Assembly: GCA_005862225.1 (NCBI GenBank)
Contig: SZXV01000002.1
Span: 186,001 to 250,000 of the forward strand
Source: Chlorobium sp.
GTDB lineage: Bacteria > Bacteroidota > Chlorobiia > Chlorobiales > Chlorobiaceae
DNA: 64,000 nt
Reading direction: 5' to 3'
The translations under genes and the position numbers were made by a program. How positions within the stretch are numbered: position 1 is the stretch's first letter; the number at the start of each line of letters is the position of its first letter. Shown here piece by piece: positions 2,102-61,182 of the stretch. The notes below the pieces were generated by a model. That model made no database searches and was not told the origin of the DNA. It worked only from the letters and a program-made list of their open reading frames with translations.

Positions 2102-3343
2102 GTGAATCAGAACAAGTCTGCATCTGTTCGTGAGATTTTCAGTTTACCGGTTATTGTCGCCGCTCTGGGTTATTTTGTTGACATCTATGATCTGGTGCTC
2201 TTCAGCATCGTCAGAGTGCCGAGTCTGAAATCGTTTGGACTTTCCGGAAAGGAGCTGATTGATTACGGCGTTTTCCTGCTTAATATGCAGATGGTCGGTA
2301 TGCTGGTTGGCGGCATTCTCTGGGGCTGGCTTGGTGACAAGAAGGGGCGTCTGAAAATCATGTTTGCCTCTATTTTGCTCTACTCTCTTGCCAACATTGC
2401 CAATGGCTTTGTCTCTTCGCTTCCGGCGTATGCGGTCTTGCGTTTTATTGCCGGAGTTGGTCTTGCCGGGGAGCTTGGAGCTGGCATCACGCTTGTTTCA
2501 GAAGTTTTGCACACCAAAATAAGGGGATACGGCACTATGCTTGTCGCTTCAATCGGAGTGTCGGGCGCTATTCTTGCCAATATGGTAGCAAATACCTATG
2601 AGTGGCATAATGCCTTTTTTATTGGCGGTGGTCTTGGACTTCTGCTGCTTGTTGCACGGTTAAAAGTTGCTGAGTCAGGTATGTTTAAGGCTATGGAGGA
2701 AAAAACCGGCTTGAGCCGTGGCAATATGTTGGCTCTGTTTACCGACCGGAATCGTTTTTTCCGCTATGTCAACTCTATAATGATTGGCGTCCCGATCTGG
2801 TTTGTGGTTGGAGTGCTGATTACTTTTTCGCCTGAATTCGGCACTGAACTTGGAATTACCGGGCCGGTTTCTGCCGGTAATGCGGTGATGTACTGCTATC
2901 TTGGTCTGGTCTTTGGCGATTTTTCAAGTGGTCTGTTGAGCCAGCTTTTGAAGAGCCGGAAAAAGGTTATTCTGCTGTTTATGCTGCTTACTGTTGGATC
3001 GATTGCACTCTATTTTCTTCAAGGGCATCAGAATCCGCAATTCTTTTATATGGTTTGTGCACTTCTTGGTTTTGCCGGTGGTTACTGGGCTATTTTTGTC
3101 ACCGTGGCTGCTGAACAGTTTGGGACAAATCTTCGCGCTACCGTTGCAACCACAGTTCCCAATCTTGTCCGTGGTATGGTTGTGCCCATTACCATGCTGT
3201 TTCAGTTTTTCCGTGGCATGTTTGGTATGGAATCAGGGGCATTGCTGGTTGGAGGGCTCTGCATTTCAGTCGCCTTTCTGTCGCTCAGCGTCCTTGAAGA
3301 GACCTTCCATAAAGATCTTGATTATTACGAAGAGTTTCTCTGA
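2102..3343 (+). CDS. MFS transporter
   Basis: A polytopic protein of 413 residues with about 12 hydrophobic segments and the MFS loop 2-3 signature G-x-x-x-D-x-x-G-R-x (G-W-L-G-D-K-K-G-R-L). It is a secondary carrier of the inner membrane. The length and overall layout resemble metabolite:H+ symporters, but I cannot name the substrate. I choose GTG 2102 over ATG 2090 because of the ribosome binding site at 2092-2097. DUF2127 follows after 20 bases and may be cotranscribed. Confidence 0.85.
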   Translation: MNQNKSASVREIFSLPVIVAALGYFVDIYDLVLFSIVRVPSLKSFGLSGKELIDYGVFLLNMQMVGMLVGGILWGWLGDKKGRLKIMFASILLYSLANIANGFVSSLPAYAVLRFIAGVGLAGELGAGITLVSEVLHTKIRGYGTMLVASIGVSGAILANMVANTYEWHNAFFIGGGLGLLLLVARLKVAESGMFKAMEEKTGLSRGNMLALFTDRNRFFRYVNSIMIGVPIWFVVGVLITFSPEFGTELGITGPVSAGNAVMYCYLGLVFGDFSSGLLSQLLKSRKKVILLFMLLTVGSIALYFLQGHQNPQFFYMVCALLGFAGGYWAIFVTVAAEQFGTNLRATVATTVPNLVRGMVVPITMLFQFFRGMFGMESGALLVGGLCISVAFLSLSVLEETFHKDLDYYEEFL

Positions 3344-3363
3344 GAGAGCTGTAAAAATATTAC

Positions 3364-3885
3364 ATGATCGCCGGTAATCGGGATTCAGATAAAATTGTTC
3401 TCTCTATGAATGTTTTGAACGACAAAACGCGGTTCGGCATAAAAGGGATAGCTTTTTTTGAGGCGGCAAAGGGTCTTCTCGTTCTTGTTGCCGGGTTTTC
3501 GCTGTTTGCATTGATACATCAGAATTTGCAGGTATTTGCCGGGCAACTGGTCGGGCATCTGCATCTCAATGCGGCAAAACACATTCCCGAGATTTTTTTA
3601 AAAGCCATCGGCAATCTTACCGACAGCCGGTTACTGCTTCTGGCGGTTCTTGCATTTCTGTATTCGGTTATGCGATTTGTCGAGGCTTACGGCCTCTGGT
3701 TTGCAAAACGATGGGCGCAATGGTTTGCGTTGTTCAGCGGAGGCGTTTATCTGCCGGTCGAACTGTACGAACTTGTAAAAGGTTTTTCTTGGATTACTAT
3801 TGTTTTTGTCGTGGTCAACCTCATTGTTGTCCTGTTTATGGCCGTTACGCTCGCGAAAAAAAGGACCGGGAACAACCACTACTGA
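3364..3885 (+). CDS. DUF2127 integral membrane protein
   Basis: 173 residues with four hydrophobic segments. The family pattern is clear: G-I-K-G-I-A-F-F-E-A-A-K-G-L-L-V-L near the start, then R-F-V-E-A-Y-G-L-W, R-W-A-Q-W-F-A and G-G-V-Y-L-P-V-E-L. The function of DUF2127 is unknown. A second in-frame ATG at 3406 is an equally plausible start, since the conserved part begins just after it and neither start has a convincing ribosome binding site. Confidence 0.8.
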   Translation: MIAGNRDSDKIVLSMNVLNDKTRFGIKGIAFFEAAKGLLVLVAGFSLFALIHQNLQVFAGQLVGHLHLNAAKHIPEIFLKAIGNLTDSRLLLLAVLAFLYSVMRFVEAYGLWFAKRWAQWFALFSGGVYLPVELYELVKGFSWITIVFVVVNLIVVLFMAVTLAKKRTGNNHY

Positions 3886-3977
3886 TGTCATGCAATTTGC
3901 TGGAATGTTCCTGTTGTTCTGATTGATTCAAGAATGCTTTTGACTGTTTTTTTCTACTAAACCTTTGGAGATATCAC

Positions 3978-5603
3978 ATGACTCCACAAATAAAAAAAAT
4001 TCACATTCTTCTTGTAGTGGCACAAATCTGCCTCTGCGGATATAAGCCGTCTGGTTCCGGGCATCAACCAAACTCCTTTTCGGGAACAGCAACAGCTTCC
4101 TCTAAAACTCAAGGTGTTGTCGAAGCGTCCGTAAATATTCCTGAGCCTTCGGAAATTCGTAGCATCAATGGCAGATTGGATGTGACGCTCGAAGGAAAAC
4201 CTTCCAAGGTTATCGTCGCGGGAAAAACTTTCGTCAGCAATGTGTTCAATGGAAGCTATATCCCTCCTGTACTGGTGGTCCAGCGTGGTGACGAAGTACG
4301 CATCAGGTTTGTCAACAATGTAGGCAAGGCTGATATCGAGATAGACGGGCCGCAGCCCTCGAATATTCATACTCACGGTATGGCAATCAGCCCTCAGCAA
4401 CCCGCCGATAATGCGTTTGTTGTTTTGCCTTCGGGTGCTTCTTCAGGAAAAATGAATGGCAGTATGCCTCATGGCCATGATATGGTAGCGGAAACACCGA
4501 AATCATTCCCCGATGGTTCCGGTTTGCAATCGGCGAACGTGTATGAATATCGCTGGAAGGTTCCACCCGACCATGCTCAAGGTCTCCACTGGTATCACCC
4601 GCACGCTCACGGAATGGTTGAGCCGCAGGTGCTCAGCGGGATGTCGGGGCTATTGGTTGTGGATGGCTTTATACAGGACCATTACCCGGAGCTGGCCGGT
4701 CTTAAGGTTCGCCGACTGCTTCTCAAAGACATTGATCTTCCTGGCGCAAAGGATGGTGATCCAAAAACCAAGACTATAAATGGTGTAAGCGGAGGTATCA
4801 TGCACATGCAGCCCGGAGAGCATCAGATTTGGGAAATTGGCAATGTTGGCTCCGATGCATTTTTCGATCTGGCACTCGATGGGCACCAATTCTGGATTCT
4901 GGGTCACGACGGAAATATTCTGCTCAAGCCAGTGTTGGCAAAAAGTCTGTTTCTTCCTGCTGGAGCCAGGGTTACTGTTGTCGTCCAGGCAGGAGCAAAA
5001 GGCAGCTACGCTCTGCGATCCCTTGATGTGGATACTGGGCCTGCAGGTGACCCCAATCCTATGGTGATTCTGGGCAAAGTCGTTGTGAATGGCCCGTCAA
5101 TGGACGGTACGGCAAAAAATCTGCGGCTTGAACAAAAAGCCGTTAATCGATCCACGATTCAACCGGTACTGCAGGATGTCATTTCCCTTCCTGTCACTCG
5201 GAAAAGAACGATAACATTCTCTGAAAGCAGGGATGGGAAGACGTTTTATATTGACGGAAAAGAATTCGATCCTGCTCGCGATGATATCACCGTACATGTT
5301 GGAGATGTCGAGGAATGGACACTGCTCAATACGACCACTGAACGGCATATATTTCATATTCATCAACTGGATTTTTTAGTTGAAAAGATCAATGAAAATG
5401 ATCCCGATGCGACAGGCTTGCGGGATACGATCGATCTTCCCTACGCAATAAAAGGTAAGCCGGGCATGGTCAGACTAAAGATCCCTTTTACCAATCCCCT
5501 GATTGTTGGACGTTTTCCTTATCATTGTCATATTTTGGAACATGAAGATCACGGCATGATGGCGACAGTGCGCGTATTGCCAAAAGTAATCTCCACACCT
5601 TAG
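3978..5603 (+). CDS. Multicopper oxidase (exported)
   Basis: 541 residues with all copper ligands visible. H131-T-H133 and H-W-Y-H-P-H-A-H at 204-211 supply type 2/3 ligands. H-I-F-H-I-H lies about 60 residues before the end region. Y-H-C-H-I-L-E-H-x4-M at 515-527 contains the trinuclear ligands H516 and H518 plus type 1 ligands C517, H522 and M527. It should oxidise a substrate (cuprous ion, metals or phenols) with four-electron reduction of O2, outside the cytoplasm. The N-terminus is a hydrophobic export segment with Cys20, but the lipobox I-C-L-C is poor and there is no twin-arginine motif. A Met/His-rich loop at 155-170 suggests copper binding, as in CueO. It is odd to find an oxygen-using enzyme in an anaerobic phototroph; detoxification of copper or trace O2 is the likely use. 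Confidence 0.9.
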   Translation: MTPQIKKIHILLVVAQICLCGYKPSGSGHQPNSFSGTATASSKTQGVVEASVNIPEPSEIRSINGRLDVTLEGKPSKVIVAGKTFVSNVFNGSYIPPVLVVQRGDEVRIRFVNNVGKADIEIDGPQPSNIHTHGMAISPQQPADNAFVVLPSGASSGKMNGSMPHGHDMVAETPKSFPDGSGLQSANVYEYRWKVPPDHAQGLHWYHPHAHGMVEPQVLSGMSGLLVVDGFIQDHYPELAGLKVRRLLLKDIDLPGAKDGDPKTKTINGVSGGIMHMQPGEHQIWEIGNVGSDAFFDLALDGHQFWILGHDGNILLKPVLAKSLFLPAGARVTVVVQAGAKGSYALRSLDVDTGPAGDPNPMVILGKVVVNGPSMDGTAKNLRLEQKAVNRSTIQPVLQDVISLPVTRKRTITFSESRDGKTFYIDGKEFDPARDDITVHVGDVEEWTLLNTTTERHIFHIHQLDFLVEKINENDPDATGLRDTIDLPYAIKGKPGMVRLKIPFTNPLIVGRFPYHCHILEHEDHGMMATVRVLPKVISTP

Positions 5604-58183: not shown

Positions 58184-59740
58184 TCAGAAGCTCCAGAAAT
58201 CCCGGTCAAGGTTGCGGTACTGAATGCCCTGGATAAGATGCTTCATGGCAATCTGTTCAGAATTGTCGAGGTCTGCTATGGTTCGGCTTACCTTGAGTAT
58301 CCGGTCGTGGGCCCTTGCCGAAAGGTTCATTCGGTTCATGGCATCCATGAGCTTTTGCGAGCACTCTCTGTCGAGACGGCAGAAGCTTTTGATCTGACGG
58401 GGACTCATCTGGGAGTTCGTAAAGATTTTTGGTGATGTCGTGGAAGCTAATCGCTCCTGCTGTATTTTTCTTGCAGCCATGACTCGCTGGCGAATCACTG
58501 CCGAGTTCTCGGCGGTTGATGAAGAAAAGAGGTCGGAATTTTCAACTTTTGGCACGTCAATATGAATATCGATGCGGTCAAGCAGCGGGCCTGATATTTT
58601 GGAGAGATAACGCTGAATCTGTTGGGGCGGGGCGGTCAGGTTTCCGTCCCGGTCTTTCAGTGCTCCTGCCGGACTCGGGTTCATGGCGGCAATCAGCATA
58701 AAGCCTGCCGGGTACTTTGTGGTCATGGAAATTCTTGAGACTGTAACCTCGCGCTCTTCCAGAGGCTGTCGGAGCACTTCAAGCGCATTGCGACTGAATT
58801 CCGGAAGCTCATCAAGAAAAAGAATGCCATTATGGGCAAGGCTGACCTCTCCGGGTTTGGCCGTTGTGCCCCCGCCAATCAGTGCGATGTTGCTTGTGGT
58901 ATGATGGGGGCTGCGGAAAGGCCTCGTCACCATGAGAGGCCGATCTTTTTCCAGCAGGTTTGCAACCGAATAGATTTTTGTGGTTTCGAGTGACTCTTCG
59001 AAGCCGAGAGGAGGAAGAATGCCCGGTAATCCTTTTGCCAGCATTGTTTTTCCGCTGCCGGGCGGGCCGATCATGATGACGTTATGCCCCCCGGCCGCCG
59101 CAATTTCAAGTGCTTTTTTTGCCGCACCCTGCCCCTTGATATCTGCAAAATCGACAGGGTATTCCTGTTCTCCCTTAAAAAGCTCCGCGACATTGATGGT
59201 TACTGGTATTGGCACACTCTTTCCGCCCATCAGGGCAACGGTCTCGTTCAGGGTTGCGACGCCGTATACCTCAATGCTTGAACATGACGCGGAGACTGCC
59301 ACGGCAGCCTCCGCCGCATTTTCCAACGGCACAATCAGTCGTTTTATTCCCGCTTTTCCTGCCATAATTGCGACAGGAAGGGCTCCGTTGATTCTCCTCA
59401 GTGAACCGTCAAGCGCAAGTTCACCCATGATGAGAGTCTCTTCAAACCGGTTGCTGATAAGATCAAGCGAACCAAGCAGCCCGATGGCAATCGGGAGGTC
59501 AAATGCAGTGCCCTCTTTTTTTATGTCTGCTGGCGCCAGGTTGACCGTAATTTTTTTCGGAGGGATAATAAATCCAGAATTTCTTATGGCCGTCAGAATT
59601 CTCTCCCGACTCTCCCTGATGGCATTGTCTGGAAGGCCCACAACGGTAAAAGAGGGTATACCAGCAGTCACGTTGATTTCAACAGTAACCTTCATGGCAT
59701 CAATGCCAATCAGTGCAGCGGCGTTGAGTGTTGAGAGCAT
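58184..59740 (-). CDS. comM: YifB/ComM family AAA+ ATPase (magnesium chelatase-like)
   Basis: 518 residues. An N-terminal Lon-like S5-fold domain (V-T-V-E-I-N-V-T-A-G-I-P-S-F-T-V-V-G-L-P) precedes the AAA+ module with Walker A G-P-P-G-S-G-K-T-M-L-A and Walker B L-F-L-D-E-L-P-E-F. A C-terminal Mg-chelatase-type domain ends the protein. ComM is a hexameric helicase that helps branch migration during natural transformation. It is not the BchI chelatase subunit, despite Pfam naming. Confidence 0.93.
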   Translation of the reverse strand: MLSTLNAAALIGIDAMKVTVEINVTAGIPSFTVVGLPDNAIRESRERILTAIRNSGFIIPPKKITVNLAPADIKKEGTAFDLPIAIGLLGSLDLISNRFEETLIMGELALDGSLRRINGALPVAIMAGKAGIKRLIVPLENAAEAAVAVSASCSSIEVYGVATLNETVALMGGKSVPIPVTINVAELFKGEQEYPVDFADIKGQGAAKKALEIAAAGGHNVIMIGPPGSGKTMLAKGLPGILPPLGFEESLETTKIYSVANLLEKDRPLMVTRPFRSPHHTTSNIALIGGGTTAKPGEVSLAHNGILFLDELPEFSRNALEVLRQPLEEREVTVSRISMTTKYPAGFMLIAAMNPSPAGALKDRDGNLTAPPQQIQRYLSKISGPLLDRIDIHIDVPKVENSDLFSSSTAENSAVIRQRVMAARKIQQERLASTTSPKIFTNSQMSPRQIKSFCRLDRECSQKLMDAMNRMNLSARAHDRILKVSRTIADLDNSEQIAMKHLIQGIQYRNLDRDFWSF

Positions 59741-59851
59741 GATGGATTAAATAGCTGATTTCGACATTTATACGCAAGGTAGATAAATATTGAAAATACG
59801 CAACTATTTCTTTTTTGCCATCAGGCGATAAACGTCATCGGTTACCCCTTG

Positions 59852-60321
59852 CTATCCCGTGGTGCGCAACCCTCCTGATATCGCGTTGACCGTCAGGAAA
59901 AGCTCAACCAGAAGCTTTTCGGCCTCCTCCTGTTTTCCCAAATGCTGAAGCTCTCTCCATTGCCTGAGCAGTTTTATTTGTTGCTGGTGCAGCATGTCAA
60001 GACCCTCCTGGCGAGGAGTAATAAATTTATTGACATTGAGACGCTGGGTTGCAAGGGGGTTGACTGATGCCAGGCTGGTGTCGGCATTGCTGATGATGTA
60101 GCGAAGCGGAGTCCTCTTCTGCCATATTATCGAAAAAACCTGAAGAGCCCTTTCTGTGTCGGGATATTGTTTATAGGCATGCTTGCATTCCCGGAAGGGA
60201 GGTGGTTAGCCAGTTGCCCTTCGCCAAGGTCACGGAGCATCTCCTGAAAGCACTGAAGAAGAAAGATGAAATCGCGTTCCGCTTTTTCAAAGTCGATAAT
60301 ACTGCTGGTGGTGGTGATCAT
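59852..60321 (-). pseudogene. ppc: Remnant of phosphoenolpyruvate carboxylase gene (both ends, middle deleted)
   Basis: From ATG 60321 about 40 codons match the PEPC N-terminus (I-D-F-E-K-A-E-R-D-F and L-L-Q-C-F-Q-E-M-L-R-D-L-G-E). At about 60200 the similarity moves to another frame and reads as the PEPC C-terminus: F-S-I-I-W-Q-K-R-T-P-L-R-Y-I-I-S-N, N-K-F-I-T-P-R-Q-E-G-L and the closing G-G-L-R-T-T-G before TAG 59854. The several hundred residues in between, with the catalytic His and Arg, are missing. A normal ppc is ~900 codons, so this is an internal deletion. It lies divergently upstream of pscC. Confidence 0.75.
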
Positions 60322-60540: not shown

Positions 60541-61182
60541 ATGGACAACAAATCAAATGGTAAGCTTCTTGCGTTAGCTGGAGGCGCGGCTGTCTTAATG
60601 GGGTCATTGTTTTTCGGGTTGTCATTTTTAACCGGGTATAAGGTACCCGCCGAGAATATCTCCTTGTTTTTAACACCTTTACGTTCATTTGCCGGGTGGA
60701 TTGCCCTTATTCTTTTTGCTTCGCTCACTATTATGGGGCTTGGCAAAATGTCCGCCAGAATCAGTACCAAATGGTTTTTAAGTTTTCCACTCAGCATTAT
60801 CGCCATTGTTGCGGTCATGTTTGCCTCGCTCTGGTTCAGACCATCAGGTTTATTGATGTCAACCACAGGCAGAACGACAACCATGGACGGAAAGTACATT
60901 CGTTCGGTTAGCGAATTGAAAGCCTATCTCGAAAAGCCGGTCTTATCGGCAAATGTTCCTGTAGCGCCTCCGGGCTATGACTTTAATGCCGCCAAGGCTC
61001 TTTGGGTTGCAAAGTGCAACGTCTGCCATACCCAGGCTTCAACGATGGATGCTTTCAAAACCAAGTACAAGAAAACAGGAAAAGTTGATGTGATTGTTAA
61101 TCGTATGCAGGCAACTCCCGGATCCGGGATCACTGTTGACGATGCTAAAGCTATCATGATGTATATGAACGAGAAGCTTTGA
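60541..61182 (+). CDS. pscC: Photosynthetic reaction centre cytochrome c (PscC, cytochrome c-551/cz)
   Basis: 213 residues. Three hydrophobic segments (~8-32, 47-68, 79-99) anchor the protein; the C-terminal domain carries one haem site C-N-V-C-H at 159-163 and a likely axial Met at 189 (R-M-Q-A-T-P-G-S-G). PscC donates electrons to P840 of the green sulfur bacterial homodimeric reaction centre, receiving them from the menaquinol:cytochrome c oxidoreductase or soluble cytochrome. This gene fixes the lineage. The frame opens at 60505, but ATG 60541 gives the known length. Confidence 0.93.
   Translation: MDNKSNGKLLALAGGAAVLMGSLFFGLSFLTGYKVPAENISLFLTPLRSFAGWIALILFASLTIMGLGKMSARISTKWFLSFPLSIIAIVAVMFASLWFRPSGLLMSTTGRTTTMDGKYIRSVSELKAYLEKPVLSANVPVAPPGYDFNAAKALWVAKCNVCHTQASTMDAFKTKYKKTGKVDVIVNRMQATPGSGITVDDAKAIMMYMNEKL

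Follow-up and report, generated by a model that had tools for sequence, protein, structure and literature searches.

In green sulfur bacteria, phosphoenolpyruvate carboxylase (PEPC, encoded by ppc) is commonly drawn as the step by which C3 units enter oxaloacetate. Published surveys indicate a patchy distribution of the gene in this group: among coral-associated Prosthecochloris, ppc is reported in two members only and the genes of the reductive TCA (rTCA) cycle are complete in all but one (PMC8209720), while pycA is reported as lacking throughout Prosthecochloris and pckG is called conserved (PMC10158934). A review of green sulfur bacteria raises the possibility that pyruvate is carboxylated to oxaloacetate at the expense of ATP; neither PEP nor phosphoenolpyruvate is mentioned in its main text (PMC11269200). 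The patchiness of ppc is thus already published, and our searches of open-licence papers turned up no statement on ppc decay in Chlorobium, nor any series of genes decaying in place there.

Here we describe a ppc remnant in a window of 64,000 nucleotides (i.e., the whole stretch of DNA analysed) from Chlorobium sp. and compare it with the corresponding loci and genomes of its relatives. Our preferred reading, which we hold to be probable, is that of a recently dead ppc, the loss of which is recurrent, ordinary and tolerated thanks to other oxaloacetate-making enzymes.

A dead ppc between comM and pscC

The remnant (59852-60321, minus strand, exact coordinates) lies between comM/yifB, its downstream neighbour, which encodes a Mg chelatase-like AAA ATPase (58184..59740, minus strand; TIGR00368, 608 bits, over the cut-off), and the divergent pscC, for the photosystem P840 reaction-centre cytochrome c-551 (60541..61182, plus strand; PF10643, 352 bits), the neighbour already named by the first-pass annotation. 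When the minus strand is translated in three frames (59800-60321), both ends of ppc are legible and mutually out of frame, in agreement with that annotation. The 5' remnant (60129..60321, minus strand) reads MITTTSSIIDFEKAERDF... from an ATG at 60319-60321 and stops after 64 amino acids, its frame closing at 60127-60129. The 3' remnant (59852..60062, minus strand) corresponds to the last ~70 codons of ppc, as judged against an intact relative; in the other frame, the C-terminal piece reads ...RYIISNADTSLASVNPLATQRLNVNKFITPR...LFLTVNAISGGLRTTG and ends at the stop codon 59852-59854. The identification as ppc holds for both segments. Indeed, the C-terminal piece matches Pfam PF00311 with 33.6 bits (cut-off 22.4; E 1.4e-8) over positions 846-919 of 919, and the remnant hits NCBIfam PRK00009.1 with an E-value of 3.4e-6, far under the cut-off of that model. 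The 64-residue N-terminal piece has no match among Pfam or NCBIfam models; it aligns, as DNA and as protein, to the intact gene of a relative (locus L096), with 74% identity to its PEPC over 58 residues (E 9.9e-21).

When the comM-pscC interval is aligned to L096 DNA, three blocks match, the first ending at reference position 419, the second covering 2609-2663 and the third running from 2784 onward, hence two deletions, of ~2.19 kb and ~0.12 kb. The first joint carries an unaligned 14-bp filler (60115..60128) and the second shows ~3 shared bases. Between them survives an internal island of 55 bp or ~18 codons (60060..60114, minus strand; the RYIISNADTSLAS region), 91% identical to L096 and 96% to L111, so that the claim of a missing middle is right for the two deleted stretches and wrong for this island. 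With two frames and ~2.3 kb missing, there is no single frame of ~920 amino acids with its catalytic middle. The gene at 59852-60321 is therefore a real but dead ppc, an ordinary pseudogene lost through internal deletions in place. Judging from the few bases shared at the joints, these deletions probably arose by short-homology recombination.

That the middle of the gene merely dropped out during sequencing or assembly is exceedingly improbable. Nothing direct speaks for such an artefact, beyond the fact that several relatives are MAGs, and the contig that carries the remnant is 884 kb long, with the remnant 246 kb from its start, in a genome (G000; 2,498,969 bases) that is 99.96% complete in 13 contigs. 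Moreover, the frames differ, the 55-bp island persists, and other deletions are found at the same place in 12 loci of relatives.

Repeated loss in relatives and the age of the deletions

These relatives come from a scan based on a PscC alignment, which yielded 71 loci, mostly from MAGs, in which ppc was scored with the PEPC of L096 as the query. The gene is full-length in 57, partial in six and without match in eight; since L160 (partial) and L134 (no match) are cut by a contig end, 69 loci are readable. The neighbourhood check proposed along with the first-pass annotation shows that the order comM-ppc-pscC is conserved, with ppc intact in most relatives. It also reveals a repetition of the loss that had not been foreseen, the gene being gutted or gone in 12 of the 69 readable loci (L097, L099, L100, L101, L102, L104, L108, L110, L113, L131, L140, L146), among which are those of Chlorobium chlorochromatii (MAG), Chlorobium sp. 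N1 and Chlorobium phaeovibrioides BrKhr17. Around a plain intact ppc, comM and pscC are ~3.1 kb apart (tblastn measure), to be compared with 2114, 1194, 801 (this remnant), 665, 568, 562, 398, 281, 227, 213, 201 and 199 bases in the loci with a loss; L131, where comM is not within the locus, has no such distance. Locus L101 (6070-7848) holds a gutted ppc with two deletions (~522 and 486 bp), both multiples of three, which leave an open frame of 603 codons. Internal stops were flagged in 10 of the 57 full-length loci, eight of them upstream of the start (the query begins 19 residues before the Met), and those truly inside ppc are in L105 (query residue 595) and in L151 (residue 938, four residues short of the end). 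The in-frame stop of L105, in an otherwise full-length gene, could mark either a pseudogene in the making or an error in the MAG; this locus is probably that of genome G023, the ppc of which has one TAA.

How often ppc was lost was read from two trees. In a DNA tree of comM+pscC (58 rows, 12 lost, this remnant included), the loss label needs at least five changes, also in bootstrap trees, while it needs seven in a PscC protein tree (69 rows, 13 lost), four of them forced by strongly supported branches. Our reading of the two trees is about seven to nine separate losses, including this one, if loss is irreversible; both trees place this remnant's locus only approximately, and recombination has affected comM in L111 at least. 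The breakpoints of this remnant, L097, L100, L104 and L108 all differ from one another on at least one side, and decay has reached different stages in the sister loci L101 and L113. A re-acquisition of ppc by transfer in the intact members of this lossy clade had been suspected from unequal dS values (L111-L096). Nothing in the ppc tree points to it, and we rejected the idea because this tree and PscC agree, the misplaced gene in L111 being comM. In the latter locus (3334-4887), comM is 97% like that of L105, yet ppc and pscC group with L096, which points to recombination at comM.

In relatives, the ppc-comM gap serves as a site of insertion (L107 108-4891, L135 1185-4903, L123 1452-4182, L127 3683-4890, L156 414-5028), where genes judged by eye are DNA methyltransferase-like, toxin-antitoxin-like, or an AAA ATPase with HNH (PtuAB-like).

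Rough dN/dS values, computed from short pieces of ppc, suggest that the loss is recent here. For the C-terminal piece, they are 0.06, 0.07, 0.10 and 0.05 against L096, L098, L111 and L136, i.e., within or just below the range of 14 pairs of intact ppc (0.07-0.17), while the N-terminal piece gives 0.18-0.25 against relatives. Because the C-terminal values resemble those of intact pairs, most of the divergence of this piece would have gathered while the gene still worked. The same low values (0.05-0.10) might be read as a sign that the short C-terminal frame, open without a stop over 117 codons, continues to be expressed as a product with its own function, the more so as L104 and L108 have likewise retained a piece from about codon 874. 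We deem this very improbable, given that a young pseudogene yields low dN/dS too, that no start signal is shown, and that no match to the C-terminal piece is left beside pscC in six loci (L099, L102, L110, L113, L140, L146).

The right-hand deletion ends of this remnant, L104 and L108 fall within ~8 bp of each other near codon 874 of ppc. In simulations, the chance of such clustering is 0.002 (breakpoints uniform over the gene) to 0.014 (over the last 700 bp), for a test devised after the data had been seen, and we leave this weak pattern without explanation. In 57 loci, we looked downstream of ppc for direct repeats of its 3' end. L156 (Chlorobaculum thiosulfatiphilum; 3533-3739 and 5029 onward) has an intact ppc plus a 207-bp direct repeat (96% identity) of its 3' end, ~1.3 kb downstream, which starts at the codon where the three Chlorobium deletions end. 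L158 has a second ppc 3' copy downstream of an intact gene (around 2246-2458; 76% identity), in this case a decayed and longer piece, and other matches are of 15-23 bp only (L123, L149, L154). An integrative element as the source of these breakpoints was demoted to a weak rival, the repeat being clear in L156 alone. In the version that we still weighed, a mobile element or a site-specific recombinase acting at about codon 874 would cause the recurrent ends, as the clustering and the starting point of the L156 repeat might suggest. We find this quite improbable, in view of the post hoc test and of the decayed, longer copy of L158, and because no integrase was recognised by eye among the ORFs listed in the ppc-comM gap and plain deletion between short homologies would account for the few bases shared at the joints.

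Carboxylating enzymes in genomes with and without ppc

The first-pass annotation had expected that another copy or another carboxylating enzyme would make up for the loss, and proposed a search of the rest of the genome, which bore out the second option. In G000, whole-genome searches recovered no PF00311 match other than the remnant, no archaeal-type PEPC and no ATP-dependent PEP carboxykinase (ATP-PEPCK). They did recover a GTP-PEPCK (L172; 636-codon frame, C4:47613-48668; PRK04210, 1029 bits for a cut-off of 504), which matches solved GTP-PEPCKs over its full length (alignment to 9e32 over residues 13-609), along with a malic enzyme (423-codon frame), a PycB-like carboxyltransferase and a transcarboxylase-like operon. 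The latter (contig C11; L034 6486-10200) groups 5S, 12S and 1.3S genes, the set of a methylmalonyl-CoA carboxyltransferase, the 5S gene scoring 986 bits with PRK12330 (cut-off 827) and being followed by mmdA-like (777 bits, under the cut-off of 999) and BCCP genes. The PycB-like protein (contig C9; L035 7951-9885) has 645 amino acids and a fused biotin domain (BCCP), and its gene adjoins a class I fumarase-like gene. It scores under the NCBIfam cut-offs for PycB (PRK09282; 288 bits of 402) and oadA (291 of 756), yet keeps the motifs RDGFQ, RGANVVG, FKDASG, HTHD, VTP and EAMKM, which we take to be those of PYC/5S carboxyltransferase catalysis and of the biotinyl lysine. There is no dedicated PycA, the only PF02785 biotin carboxylase match of G000 being on another contig.

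Across 37 genomes of the genus (G000 included), a largely complete PF00311 match is found in 29, G003 and G031 having it split over contig ends and G023 having the internal TAA. The other eight (G000, G010, G012, G017, G018, G019, G028, G030) have no usable ppc; among them, G018 has the gutted gene with the 603-codon frame, and G019 is 81% complete and lacks a detectable pscC as well. From matching contig numbers or pscC coordinates, we infer that loci L131, L097, L100, L101, L108 and L113 belong to G010, G012, G017, G018, G028 and G030, in which the whole-genome PF00311 search found no other ppc; this genome-wide check covers these six of the 12 lost loci. GTP-PEPCK is encoded in 36 of the 37 genomes, G021, which has ppc, being the exception, and is the only alternative found in all eight ppc-defective ones. 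As it is equally present in ppc-bearing genomes, its presence alone does not prove a replacement. A malic enzyme as a general back-up was discarded, since it is absent from four ppc-defective genomes (G010, G012, G017, G018) in a search covering 25 of the 37 (G028 and G030 left out).

The PycB-like type, which we distinguished from the remaining PF02436 types through its score and length (our own grouping), is found in seven of the eight ppc-defective genomes, and all ten proteins read have the active-site motifs. It is missing from the incomplete G019 and from four ppc-bearing genomes (G007, G009, G029, G034). One could thus argue that this carboxyltransferase, rather than PEPCK, is the main replacement, relying on AccC as the sole biotin carboxylase and converting pyruvate to oxaloacetate where the malate-fumarate arm begins, a role with which its distribution, its conserved motifs and fused biotin domain, and the adjacent fumarase gene of G000 would agree. 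We consider this rather unlikely, owing to its sub-threshold scores, to the lone biotin carboxylase of G000, to its absence from G019 and from G009 (where ppc is intact), and to the existence in G001, G007, G029, G031 and G034 of a distinct PycB type that has a biotin carboxylase of its own next to it.

Under our preferred reading of a recurrent and tolerated loss, two internal deletions removed most of the ppc coding sequence and left the comM and pscC flanks in place. GTP-PEPCK, nearly genus-wide, would run in the carboxylating direction, from PEP to oxaloacetate, even though in many bacteria this enzyme works towards PEP, and ppc would be dispensable in the genus because oxaloacetate could be obtained from PEP in this way. 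The PycB-like biotin-dependent carboxyltransferase, nearly genus-wide too, might provide a second route, from pyruvate. Compared with PEPC, PEPCK would save one nucleotide triphosphate per oxaloacetate, a saving that could favour the loss of ppc in CO2-rich, light-poor anoxic water. More tentatively, we propose that PEPC is no permanent component of autotrophy in Chlorobium, whose lineages would repeatedly drop ppc and make oxaloacetate either with a carboxylating GTP-PEPCK, at this lower cost, or by means of an unusual biotin carboxyltransferase, linked to fumarase and borrowing the biotin carboxylase of fatty-acid synthesis.

Comparison with known systems

With ppc caught at several stages of decay beside intact relatives, which enzyme feeds the rTCA cycle becomes a testable question. 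The pseudogene gains interest from the parallel losses of this textbook anaplerotic enzyme, of which it is one among several, and such a decay series is a warning against inferring the make-up of a pathway from one model species.

Compared with bacterial-type PEPC (PF00311 / PRK00009), the remnant is alike in both ends, in one island and in its position beside pscC, where relatives have the intact gene, but differs in having lost ~2.3 kb of coding sequence, the catalytic middle included, and in the mismatched frames of its two ends. The enzyme retained in G000 belongs to the known family of GTP-dependent PEP carboxykinases (PRK04210, PF00821). Finally, the coral-associated Prosthecochloris are likewise green sulfur bacteria with a patchy ppc and nearly all rTCA genes kept (PMC8209720); the difference is that presence and absence were reported there, while the Chlorobium loci, in another genus, exhibit decay in place, with remnants and breakpoints.
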